Shown here: positions 16,679-27,340 of the stretch, one piece after another
How positions within the stretch are numbered: position 1 is the stretch's first letter
How the letters are laid out: each line of letters opens with the position of its first letter
From: Caldisericum sp.
GTDB taxonomy: Bacteria > Caldisericota > Caldisericia > Caldisericales > Caldisericaceae
Direction of reading: 5' to 3'
DNA length: 64,000 nucleotides
NCBI GenBank assembly: GCA_022759145.1
Contig: JAEMPV010000016.1
Location: 1,864-65,863, forward strand
The notes under the pieces: generated by a model
Seen by the model: the letters and a program-made list of their open reading frames with translations, nothing else
Told to the model about the DNA's origin: nothing
Databases searched by the model: none
Translations under genes and position numbers: made by a program

Positions 16679-20326
<3,648 letters not shown>

Positions 20327-23788: not shown

Positions 23789-24793
23789 TTATGGCTTTTT
23801 AGGTGCTGGTACTTTAATTTTGAAAGTAATAATGTTCGAAATTTCAACAGTGCTAACATCGACATATTTGCCAAGAATAAGAACCCTATCTCCAACTTTT
23901 AGGTCTGTAATTTTTACTTTACCTTTGTAGTCCTGAGGAAACTTGAAAGTTATAAGTGGTAGTTCTGATAACTTCAAAGTCTTGTTTTCAAGGTCAATAA
24001 AGGAAACTGTTCCGCCCACTGCAACTGCTGTATTCGGTTTAAAGGCAAGGACAACTATTGATGTTGCAAAGTAATTGCCTGATGCTGCATCGAGCCTTGC
24101 ATGAATTTGAACTGGGTCTCCAACCTTTAAATCAGCAAATTTGATACGACCTGTTCCGACCTTTGTAATTGAAGTTTTATCGTTTACAAAGATTTGATAA
24201 TCAAAGTCTTTTACTTTCACATAGTTAGAACCGATTTCTGTTATATAGGTCCTCATTTCAAATTCCTTATGTGAAATTATCAGAATTTCCTTTGCAACAT
24301 ACACATCCTGCGAGTATTCACCGTGAACTACAACCCTATCGCCCACCTGAATCTCAGAAAAACTGACTAATTTCCCTTTGAACCTTACTTTAGTATCCGC
24401 ATTTACAACAATTGTTTTTCCGTTAACGACTATTGCATTTTGTGAAATAGATGAGACCTCACCTGAAATAGTAAACACCTTTGCAATAGATAAGTCGGTG
24501 AATGCAAGTACAAGTCTTGCAACAAGTTTATTGTCGAGGTTCTCGCACATCGCAATCGCCTGCATGCCTACCTTAATATCATTTATTGTTGCAGACTTCC
24601 CGTTAAGCCTCAACACAGTATCGTCTTTAATCGAAACTTCCTTGCCTCCAATTTTAATAGAAGTTGCAGAAATTGATTCTATTGCGCCCTTAACGACTTC
24701 AACCTTCGGTAGCGTAGTCTTTGCACCTGCGCTTACTGGTAACAGCGCCACAATCAAAAGCAAAACTAATACAAAAACCAAAAATCTCTTCAT
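23789..24793 (-). CDS. Secreted protein with repeated DUF5666-like beta domains
   Basis: 334 residues from the ATG at 24793, chosen over an in-frame GTG 15 bases earlier because that GTG lies in the ribosome-binding site (GGAGGTG). Residues 1-25 form a classical signal peptide ending near SAGA. The mature part has four tandem modules of 70-80 residues, each following the pattern 'inhibit-free' GxVxxI...IxVxGKxIxVxxxTxV...FxDLKVGDxVxVxG, for example EIQVGDRVVVHGEY, DLKVGDPVQIHA and DLKVGDRVLILGKY. This resembles DUF5666. No catalytic residues are evident; an exported beta-rich structural or binding role is a guess. Confidence 0.72.
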   Translation of the reverse strand: MKRFLVFVLVLLLIVALLPVSAGAKTTLPKVEVVKGAIESISATSIKIGGKEVSIKDDTVLRLNGKSATINDIKVGMQAIAMCENLDNKLVARLVLAFTDLSIAKVFTISGEVSSISQNAIVVNGKTIVVNADTKVRFKGKLVSFSEIQVGDRVVVHGEYSQDVYVAKEILIISHKEFEMRTYITEIGSNYVKVKDFDYQIFVNDKTSITKVGTGRIKFADLKVGDPVQIHARLDAASGNYFATSIVVLAFKPNTAVAVGGTVSFIDLENKTLKLSELPLITFKFPQDYKGKVKITDLKVGDRVLILGKYVDVSTVEISNIITFKIKVPAPKKP

Positions 24794-24805
24794 CCTTATC
24801 ACCTC

Positions 24806-24828
24806 CACATAATAATATGTATTATGTG
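24806..24828. repeat. Nine-base inverted repeat before the DUF5666 gene
   Basis: CACATAATA (24806-24814) and TATTATGTG (24820-24828), five bases apart, ending directly at the ribosome-binding site of the DUF5666 gene. It could be an operator or an mRNA hairpin affecting translation. Confidence 0.6.
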
Positions 24829-24884: not shown

Positions 24885-24913
24885 TTGACAGAGGAAAAAA
24901 AGATATCTATAAT
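24885..24913 (+). promoter_or_regulatory. Consensus sigma-70-type promoter of the asparagine synthetase leader
   Basis: TTGACA (24885-24890), exactly 17 bases, TATAAT (24908-24913): a perfect consensus and the best promoter in the window. The expected start of transcription is near 24920, only about five bases before the leader-peptide ATG. Confidence 0.88.
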
Positions 24914-24924
24914 ACATCCAAAGT

Positions 24925-24999
24925 ATGGAAAGGGTTAGATTAGCAGTAGCAAATAATAACAATAATAATAACCTGCCCGGCGCCGGTCGGTTTGGGTAG
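24925..24999 (+). CDS. Asparagine leader peptide (attenuator), 24 residues with seven consecutive Asn
   Basis: ATG at 24925 opens a 24-codon frame ending in TAG at 24997-24999: MERVRLAVA, seven Asn (AAT/AAC at 24952-24972), LPGAGRFG. It has almost no untranslated leader and no Shine-Dalgarno sequence. Seven Asn codons in a row directly upstream of a terminator and an asparagine synthetase gene are the signature of a ribosome-mediated attenuator: translation speed through the run reports the supply of Asn-tRNA(Asn). The protein product is probably unimportant. Too short for usual gene callers. Confidence 0.88.
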   Translation: MERVRLAVANNNNNNNLPGAGRFG

Positions 25000-25046
25000 C
25001 TACTGCTAATCTTTACCCAAAGGCCGGCAAAGAAGCCGGCCTTTTT
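24937..25046 (+). promoter_or_regulatory. Asn-responsive transcription attenuator with alternative hairpins
   Basis: Three mutually exclusive structures are visible. Stem A: 24937-24950 pairs with 24999-25012 (14 pairs). Antiterminator: TTTGGGTA (24991-24998) with TACCCAAA (25014-25021), extended by GCCGG (24982-24986) with CCGGC (25024-25028). Terminator: GGCCGGC (25022-25028) with GCCGGCC (25035-25041), then five T. A ribosome stalled on the Asn codons covers the 5' arm of stem A and lets the antiterminator form. A ribosome reaching the TAG covers the antiterminator's 5' arm and lets the terminator form. Confidence 0.85.
25022..25046 (+). terminator. Conditional intrinsic terminator upstream of the asparagine synthetase gene
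   Basis: Seven G/C-rich pairs (GGCCGGC/GCCGGCC), loop AAAGAA, T5. It lies 31 bases before the synthetase ATG and is the OFF state of the attenuator. Confidence 0.9.
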
Positions 25047-25077
25047 AAATTTTAAAAACAAAATTTAGGAGGTAAGA

Positions 25078-25959
25078 ATGAAAAAGGAAGTTTTAGAAGT
25101 GCAAAGTGAAGCCATCTTCAGGATGGGAGAGTTTTTGAGAAACGAAGGCTTTGTCGAGTTATTACCTGTAATTATTTCCCCGCTAACCGATCCTTTGAAC
25201 CACTCTGTTTACGATGCTAAGATTCCTTATGGTAATGGCTACTATTCACTTACGAAGTCAATGATATTTCACAAGCAACTTGCCCTAAGAGAATATCCAA
25301 AAATTTTCATTTTCTCACCCAATGTAAGGCTTGAAACTGAGGACAAAAAGCATACAGGAAGGCATCTTATTGAATTTGTTCAACTTGACCTCGAAGTAAA
25401 AGATGCAACCCGAGAAGACATTTTAGACCTTGTAGAAAGGCTTCTTGTTTACACAATGCAAAAACTTGAAGAAAAATTCGGTTCATTTATAAAATCAGTT
25501 AACCCAAACTTCCATATCCCAAAAACACCATTTGAAAGAGTAAAATACCTCGAAGCAAAGGAAAAATTTGGAAGAGATTTTGAGTTATTGCTTTCAAAAG
25601 AAAAAGAAGATCCGTTTTTCTTAATTGACATTCCTATTGAAGAACGCGAATTTTACGATAGATTAAGCGACGATGGAAAAACGCTTGTTGATATGGACCT
25701 TATTTATCCTTATGGATTTGGAGAAGGTATGTCTGGTGGAGAAAGAGAATACGAGCTTGATAGGATAATTATGAGGATGAAGTACAAGAATATGAACCTT
25801 GAGGATTGGAAGTGGTATCTCGAGGAAGTGAAAAAAGGCATACCAAAATCTGCAGGATGTGGTATAGGAATTGAAAGGTTTGTGCGTTTTGTCTTGAATT
25901 TACCAAGCGTCAAAGATACGAGGCTTTTTGCAAAATTGCCAGGTGAAATAGCCCTTTAA
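25078..25959 (+). CDS. Asparagine synthetase of the AsnRS-related (archaeal, AS-AR) type
   Basis: 293 residues forming a class II aminoacyl-tRNA synthetase catalytic core with no N-terminal anticodon-binding OB domain. Motif 2 spans about 82-100 (NVRLE ... TGRHLIEF) and motif 3 is GCGIGIERFVRF (about 260-271). Such core-only relatives of AspRS/AsnRS in archaea make asparagine from aspartate, ammonia and ATP; this is not the E. coli AsnA or the glutamine-dependent AsnB family. The leader peptide of seven Asn codons upstream independently supports an asparagine product. AGGAGG precedes the start. glnA follows 55 bases downstream. A truncated AsnRS paralogue of other function is the alternative, but it fits the leader less well. 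Confidence 0.85.
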   Translation: MKKEVLEVQSEAIFRMGEFLRNEGFVELLPVIISPLTDPLNHSVYDAKIPYGNGYYSLTKSMIFHKQLALREYPKIFIFSPNVRLETEDKKHTGRHLIEFVQLDLEVKDATREDILDLVERLLVYTMQKLEEKFGSFIKSVNPNFHIPKTPFERVKYLEAKEKFGRDFELLLSKEKEDPFFLIDIPIEEREFYDRLSDDGKTLVDMDLIYPYGFGEGMSGGEREYELDRIIMRMKYKNMNLEDWKWYLEEVKKGIPKSAGCGIGIERFVRFVLNLPSVKDTRLFAKLPGEIAL

Positions 25960-26014: not shown

Positions 26015-27340
26015 ATGAAAAATACAGAGGATTTAATAAGAGAAGTACATGAAAAGAAGATAGATATTATATGGCTCCAGTTTACTGACATTCTGGGATT
26101 TCCTAAACTTGTTGAAATTTCATCAAAAATGCTCCCCAAAGTTCTTTCCGAAGGCATTGCATTTGATGGTTCTTCGATTGAGGGCTTTGCAAGAATAGAG
26201 GAATCGGATATGCTTTTGAAACCAAACCCAGAAACATTTTCAGTACTCCCATGGACGCTTAAAAACGACATTAAAATAGGAAAAATCGTTTGCGATGTTT
26301 ATTTAGATGAGAACACGCCTTTTGAGGGAGACCCGCGCTTCAGACTTAAAAAAGTCCTTAAAGAGGCTGCTTCAAATGGCTATTTTATGCAAAATGGGGT
26401 AGAGGAAGAGTTCTTCCTATTTAAACTTAAGGACGGAAATCCTTCAACAGAACTTGTAAGCAAAGGAAGTTATTTTGAAATGCTTCCTGAGGATGTAGGC
26501 GAAAAGACACGTGCTCTCATAGCAAAAGCCCTCGAGGAAATGGGCTTCGAAATTGAGACTTCACATCACGAAGTGTCACCCTCACAGCACGAAATCGACT
26601 TCAAATACGCAGATCCCATTACTACGGCAGATCGTATTATAACCTTTAAAATTGCCGCAAAAACTATCGCATTAATAAACGGACTTTACGCAACATTTAT
26701 GCCAAAACCCCTCTTTGGAGTTAATGGATCTGGAGCACACACAAATATTTCCCTTATAGATGATAACGGAAACAACCTCTTCTTTGATAAAAATGAGGAA
26801 TTTGAACTCTCTCACATAGCAAGGTATTTTATAGGAGGAATTTTCAAGCACATTGATGCAATTACTGCGATTGCAAATCCAACAGTAAATTCATACAAAA
26901 GAATCGTCCCAGGGTTTGAAGCACCTGTTTATGTCTCCTGGGCTGTTAAAAATAGAAGCGCCCTCATAAGAATTCCTCAGGCAAACGAAAAGACAAAAAG
27001 AATTGAGTTTAGAAGCCCTGACCCAACTGCAAACCCATACCTTCTTTTTACAGTAATCCTCAAAGCAGGACTTGACGGAATAAGCAATAAAATTGACCCA
27101 GGTGAGCCTGCAAATGAAGTAAACATCTTCGAAGAAAACGAAAAATTCCCAAATAAATTCAGGACTTTGCCTGCAACCTTAAAGGAAGCAATTGAGGCAC
27201 TCAAAAAGGATGATGTTATACTTGAAGCACTGGGGAGTCAAATTGCACAAAAGTACATCGAGGCAAAGGAAGCAGAGTGGGATGAGTACAGAATTGCGGT
27301 AACTGATTGGGAAATTAATAAAATACTCCCTCTATATTAA
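26015..27340 (+). CDS. glnA: Glutamine synthetase, type I (alpha subtype)
   Basis: 441 residues, the length of GSI-alpha enzymes. It ligates ammonia to glutamate with ATP. Seen: the beta-grasp N-domain, GIAFDGSSIEGF (about 47-58), the metal-binding NGVEEEFFL (about 126), NGSGAHTNISL (about 240), KNRSALIRIP (about 311) and EFRSPDPTANPY (about 325). The Asn in the NGSG motif is normal for Bacillus-type enzymes. The start has AGGAGGAGG. It lies 55 bases after the asparagine synthetase gene, so two ammonia-fixing ligases are adjacent; glnA may be read both from the attenuated transcript and from its own weak promoter. Confidence 0.98.
   Translation: MKNTEDLIREVHEKKIDIIWLQFTDILGFPKLVEISSKMLPKVLSEGIAFDGSSIEGFARIEESDMLLKPNPETFSVLPWTLKNDIKIGKIVCDVYLDENTPFEGDPRFRLKKVLKEAASNGYFMQNGVEEEFFLFKLKDGNPSTELVSKGSYFEMLPEDVGEKTRALIAKALEEMGFEIETSHHEVSPSQHEIDFKYADPITTADRIITFKIAAKTIALINGLYATFMPKPLFGVNGSGAHTNISLIDDNGNNLFFDKNEEFELSHIARYFIGGIFKHIDAITAIANPTVNSYKRIVPGFEAPVYVSWAVKNRSALIRIPQANEKTKRIEFRSPDPTANPYLLFTVILKAGLDGISNKIDPGEPANEVNIFEENEKFPNKFRTLPATLKEAIEALKKDDVILEALGSQIAQKYIEAKEAEWDEYRIAVTDWEINKILPLY

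Follow-up and report, generated by a model that had tools for sequence, protein, structure and literature searches.

Why should seven consecutive asparagine codons, set in a reading frame of 24 codons, stand between a promoter and a gene for asparagine synthesis? The question is raised by a locus in the 64,000-nucleotide stretch of Caldisericum sp. DNA analysed here (the window). We consider it highly probable that this leader attenuates transcription through the translating ribosome, sensing charged tRNA-Asn and controlling asnA together with the downstream glnA, the response to asparagine being predicted from the sequence and from folding models. The elements of the locus are as follows.

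24885..24913, plus strand: sigma-70-type promoter TTGACA-N17-TATAAT, 12 of 12 consensus positions
24925..24999, plus strand: leader peptide ORF of 24 codons, MERVRLAVANNNNNNNLPGAGRFG followed by its stop (from the sequence and its conservation in relatives)
24937..24950, plus strand: 5' arm of stem A, a genus-specific clamp, forming 14 pairs with 24999-25012
24952..24972, plus strand: putative regulatory codons, seven consecutive Asn codons (from the sequence; far above shuffles across relatives)
24977..24990, plus strand: protector hairpin 1:2 (24977-24981 with 24986-24990), between the Asn codons and the stop, covarying in 14 leaders
24982..24999, plus strand: segment 2, the 5' strand of the antiterminator with the stop codon inside it, pairing with 25013-25028 (covariation)
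24999..25012, plus strand: 3' arm of stem A, partner of 24937-24950
25013..25028, plus strand: segment 3, common to antiterminator and terminator (helix enumeration, 49 of 49 loci, covariation)
25019..25046, plus strand: intrinsic terminator 3:4 with its T5 tract at 25042-25046 (terminator scan, compensatory changes at four pairs)
25067..25072, plus strand: Shine-Dalgarno sequence AGGAGG of asnA (from the sequence)
25078..25959, plus strand: asnA, archaeal-type asparagine synthetase A, AsnRS-like without the anticodon-binding domain (NF005054 and PDB 3p8t)
26015..27340, plus strand: glnA, type I glutamine synthetase (TIGR00653, 503.4 bits against a cut-off of 429.15)

The asnA product scored 358.8 bits against the NCBIfam family NF005054 (cut-off 309), and the archaeal asparagine synthetase A (PDB 3p8t) is the best of its named structural relatives. 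On the other side of the leader region lies a divergent gene (23789-24808, minus strand). The perfect consensus promoter and the 24-codon frame with seven consecutive Asn codons ahead of the synthetase, both pointed out in a preliminary description of this DNA, are indeed present, and similar promoter elements precede the leader in relatives as well. The leader ATG is found 11 nt after the -10 box, and the predicted 5' end of the transcript some 5 nt before that ATG. The nearly leaderless start that had been read from this spacing is confined to the genus Caldisericum; the leaders of Mesoaciditogales carry a Shine-Dalgarno sequence. Overlooked in the preliminary description was glnA, both behind asnA and as a second target elsewhere: it follows asnA in five of five Caldisericum genomes and, in the window, after a gap of 55 nt without evident terminator, and is probably co-transcribed with it. 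Elsewhere in the window, at 16721-20326, a gyrB-like ORF of 1201 aa is interrupted by what is apparently an intein with homing endonuclease motifs (...HNTDGAHI).

Helix enumeration returned the same set of mutually exclusive pairings (stem A, antiterminator and terminator) that had been proposed from the letters. The antiterminator is made of 24982-24988 with 25022-25028 plus 24991-24999 with 25013-25021, and this duplex of 24982-24999 with 25013-25028 excludes the 3:4 terminator, in which 25019-25028 pairs with 25035-25044 ahead of T5. Earlier counted as seven pairs, the terminator has that number if G/C pairs alone are considered and 10 once the A/T flanks are included. The 14-pair stem around the Asn codons exists in the window as described and is a peculiarity of the genus Caldisericum, where stem A measures 14-19 bp in four species, with changed pairs; as such, it is absent from the second Caldisericaceae genus (G006) and beyond Caldisericum. 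The machine common to all type-1 leaders is the series 1:2 (just after the Asn codons), 2:3 and 3:4, with stem A as an added clamp.

From this anatomy, a ribosome short of asparagine would stall at the Asn codons and mask segment 1 along with the 5' arm of stem A, whereupon segment 2 would pair with segment 3 and RNA polymerase would enter asnA. With asparagine plentiful, the ribosome would reach the stop codon within segment 2, the antiterminator would be prevented from forming, and 3:4 would terminate transcription; a leader free of ribosomes, held by stem A and the 1:2 hairpin, would likewise end in termination. Masked folding of four leaders, in which the ribosome was represented by a mask of 17 nt before and 13 nt after the start of the A site (equilibrium energies only, with 37 C parameters though the organism is a thermophile), gave for the window a 2:3 pairing probability of 0.99 when any of the first four Asn codons occupied the A site; the value was 0.00 without a ribosome and did not exceed 0.05 at positions from Leu17 up to the stop (0.05 at the stop itself). 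Under the assumed footprint, segment 2 is already blocked when the last three Asn codons are masked, and antitermination resulted from a stall at any position from codon 2 through the fourth Asn codon. The leader of another Caldisericaceae relative (G004) behaved like the window, with probabilities of 0.84-0.86 over Asn codons 1-6. For Athalassotoga, where the modelled codon specificity is sharper than in the window, the value was about 0.85 with the ribosome on any of the first six Asn codons and close to 0 both more than two codons upstream of the run and two codons past it. Two values fit the model poorly, namely 0.73 for Athalassotoga with the ribosome at the stop codon and 0.72 for G006 without a ribosome. 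At equilibrium the full-length RNA preferred the terminator in every state (0.85-0.98), so the switch must be kinetic and decided during transcription.

Conservation speaks strongly for this model. Four species of the genus have an AsnA 81-88% identical to that of the window; the leader persists in three of them (MERVRLAVAINNNNINNSPGAGRFG, MDKLVNLAVVNNNNNNNSAGTGESG and MDRLVNLAVVNNNNNNYSAGTGESG), and in the fourth (G002) the leader is cut by the contig end with the terminator still visible. G006 carries MCRYLFSYEVNRNNNNSIGIGRLG, and the layout of Asn run, antiterminator and terminator thus recurs in all four Caldisericaceae relatives with an intact region, from two genera (G001, G003, G004 and G006). 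A scan of GTDB genomes extended it to the Mesoaciditogales within the Thermotogota, as in ...INNNNNNNSIGIGRLG of Athalassotoga saccharophila; among 103 Thermotogota genomes searched, the enzyme was found in 46, nearly all with an Asn-run leader, the tract having shrunk to DNN in a few Thermotogota leaders and reading DNDN in one of Mesoaciditogales. Runs of at least four Asn in a short ORF, counted up to 300 nt upstream of asnA, were present in 5/5 Caldisericaceae and 7/9 Mesoaciditogales, against 0.01 expected from dinucleotide shuffles in either group, and in 23/37 other Thermotogota, the shuffle expectation across groups being 0.01-0.04 and the Thermotogota count a lower bound owing to the exclusion of ORFs extended in frame upstream. 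No Asn-run leader was seen at any of 43 archaeal asnA genes or 14 Thermotogota asnB genes, which rules it out as a general trait of asparagine synthetases.

The leader is also missing at five other Caldisericaceae asnA genes. At three loci of other Caldisericaceae (L007, L008 and L009) a leaderless asnA comes immediately after amino-acid ABC transporter genes, its regulation there having been lost or replaced; in G008, where ABC-transporter genes precede asnA, no Asn leader was seen ahead of them.

A covariance model matched a single site in the genome of the window, that at asnA. In two Mesoaciditogales (loci L226 of G061 and L227 of G066) the model also picked out a second copy of the RNA switch, with GRLG-type leaders (...FANNNNNPIDTGRLG and MFAFFRMNNNNNNNNPIGTGRLG), directly before glnA, which places glutamine synthetase in the predicted asparagine regulon. 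One other Thermotogota (L255 of G165) has an NNNWPGS-type Asn leader before glnA (...NAANNNWPGSACSMP), known from the leader sequence alone. Glutamine synthetase is therefore predicted to come under asparagine control in at least two arrangements, behind asnA or with a leader of its own. Most glnA genes of the Thermotogota scanned have no such leader, these three being the only cases, and Asn leaders can be ruled out as a general feature of glnA. Weak covariance-model matches in other Caldisericota (E 0.002-0.006) are probably due to chance, and one in G115 proved to be an unrelated terminator. In G083, an Asn leader (..SKDNNNNNRPGSVGYCFI and stop) with a terminator lies upstream of a gene of unknown function (L228:270-480), and the asnA of that genome is preceded by a different Asn leader (L150).

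What signal would such a switch report? The genome of the window encodes a genuine AsnRS (590.9 bits, cut-off 414), which rules out tRNA-dependent asparagine synthesis as the sole source of Asn-tRNA, and has no asnB above cut-off, which disposes of that enzyme as an alternative in Caldisericum. Given a true AsnRS and the absence of asnB, the charging of tRNA-Asn should report free asparagine, the product of AsnA. Alternatively, and in our view possible though rather unlikely, the signal is nitrogen or amide status, low ammonia reducing tRNA-Asn charging such that the leader would act as a nitrogen sensor raising asnA and glnA. That glnA belongs to the asnA operon here, and that an Asn leader of its own precedes it in three Thermotogota genomes (two of them Mesoaciditogales), is suggestive of such a role. 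So is the amidotransferase: GlnRS is absent from the genome and gatB present, hence needed for Gln-tRNA, and the enzyme might also act on Asp-tRNA-Asn. The true AsnRS, however, means that Asn-tRNA can come from free asparagine, and most Thermotogota glnA genes lack an Asn leader. Sensing of nitrogen would in any case refine the attenuator model rather than replace it.

Evidence that the RNA helices themselves are maintained came from pairing statistics and covariation. At each of 49 loci scored (those with a terminator and an AAY tract of at least two tandem Asn codons, from related and hence not independent genomes), the best duplex between the region after the Asn codons and the 5' arm of the terminator was stronger than in 197 or more of 200 shuffles, with a mean z of -4.5. 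From group to group the sequences that pair are altogether different (CATCGGTC/GGCCGATG in Mesoaciditogales, CAGCGTCGGT/ACCGACGC in others), from which it follows that the pairing, and not the sequence, has been kept. In an alignment of 14 leaders, the lower antiterminator helix was 95.5% paired with four double-change cells (shuffle mean 0.9) and the terminator helix 95.8% paired with 10 (shuffle mean 3.2); the 1:2 hairpin, with 86.5% of cells paired, fits less well than 2:3 and 3:4 and had 13 double-change cells against 3.1. Sliding the partner by one column lowered pairing to 33-53%. Because plain MAFFT sets the upper antiterminator helix of Caldisericum one column out of register with that of Mesoaciditogales, the count was confined to the lower helix; some other covariation measures (further pair types) did not exceed the shuffles in this small sample of 14 sequences. 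The conservation of Asn codons and pairings in relatives, without which the preliminary description would have counted its reading as refuted, is thus strongly borne out by Asn runs far above shuffles and covariation in 2:3, 3:4 and 1:2, and the complete attenuator geometry it proposed is supported by anatomy, conservation and covariation alike, with the asparagine response predicted from sequence.

The same alignments speak to whether the nascent peptide, rather than slow decoding of Asn codons, could be the sensor, arresting translation upon binding free asparagine. In its favour, the C-terminal residues that follow the Asn run seem to be kept inside each group (GRLG, GPGSVG), but they change together with the RNA helices and differ from group to group while the Asn run and the pairings persist, and the N-terminal half of the leader is unconserved. 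We regard this mechanism as very unlikely.

Direct binding of tRNA or of a metabolite by the RNA, as in a T-box, has a precedent in the Asn-specific T-boxes of Firmicutes, which lie upstream of asnS and transporters (PMC2494555). These share with the present leader the sensing of tRNA-Asn charging and the control of Asn genes by antitermination, and differ from it in binding tRNA directly without a leader peptide. Searches of the window and seven relatives against Rfam returned no match besides tRNA, neither a T-box or other cis-regulator nor an operon leader of the His, Leu, Thr or Trp type, which rules out the known Rfam elements; moreover, T-boxes do not feature a conserved, translated ORF that carries regulatory codons. 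We consider this explanation extremely improbable. Equally negligible is the notion that a constitutive terminator of the ordinary kind follows an Asn-rich ORF that arose by chance, since AAT/AAC repeats do arise easily in an AT-rich genome but the near-universal presence of the leader against a shuffle expectation near zero, the antiterminator in every scored locus and the absence of the leader at asnB and archaeal asnA contradict it.

The ribosome-mediated attenuator model thus places the leader, in sequence and predicted structure, among those of the trp/his type. We know of no described asparagine attenuator. None was found in the open literature searched (the survey of Lopatovskaya et al. 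2010 lies outside that scope), and priority for a first description of an Asn-specific attenuator is not certain. With the trp, his, leu, ilv, thr and phe systems of the E. coli trpL type, modelled in PMC1183508, it shares a leader ORF with a run of codons for the product amino acid, segments pairing as 1:2, 2:3 and 3:4, a stop codon in segment 2 and an intrinsic terminator ahead of a biosynthetic gene. It departs from them in its Asn codons, in its targets (an AsnRS-like archaeal-type asparagine synthetase and glutamine synthetase), in its Caldisericota and Thermotogota hosts and, in Caldisericum, in the extra stem A and the near-leaderless start. The nearest parallel to that start, in codon run and ORF layout, comes from mycobacteria, whose leaderless polycysteine uORFs are reported to be attenuators (Canestrari et al. 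2020, as cited in PMC9031893); they likewise combine a homopolymeric codon run in a leaderless short ORF with amino-acid attenuation, there for cysteine and in actinobacteria.

A second leader design precedes asnA in Aminicenantes, Acidobacteriota and a few others. These leaders end in NNN(N)VPF or similar, and their codons lead without a break into a GUCCCC-GGGGAC hairpin whose loop contains the stop codon; a U-tract terminator is absent. Termination by Rho is one guess at how they might work.

Loci of the Aminicenantes/Acidobacteriota design, upstream of asnA: L080, L095, L102, L104, L105, L107, L111, L112, L115 and L116; also L157 and L158

Upstream of Bipolaricaulota-type asnA genes (L079, L090 and L103) lie stretches that code for peptides rich in Gln and Asn (QQNQHLLFHQQANQNA...), which may be Gln/Asn leaders. 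It is conceivable, though we would stop just short of calling it probable, that asparagine is a general attenuation signal in thermophilic bacteria of several phyla, with an asnA and glnA regulon and charged tRNA-Asn serving as a nitrogen sensor through its control of glutamine synthetase, and that the terminator-less design evolved in Aminicenantes/Acidobacteriota for the same enzyme.

As judged from sequence, dozens of related genomes from two phyla, the Caldisericota and the Thermotogota, carry the switch. Asparagine would thereby join the amino acids that ribosomes sense during translation, in phyla with little known regulation, and the conserved target set of asnA and sometimes glnA would offer a ready marker for Asn-regulated genes. 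The Asn attenuator may also serve as a test case for the coupling of transcription and translation in thermophiles, and its targets suggest that tRNA-Asn charging may govern nitrogen assimilation in these organisms.
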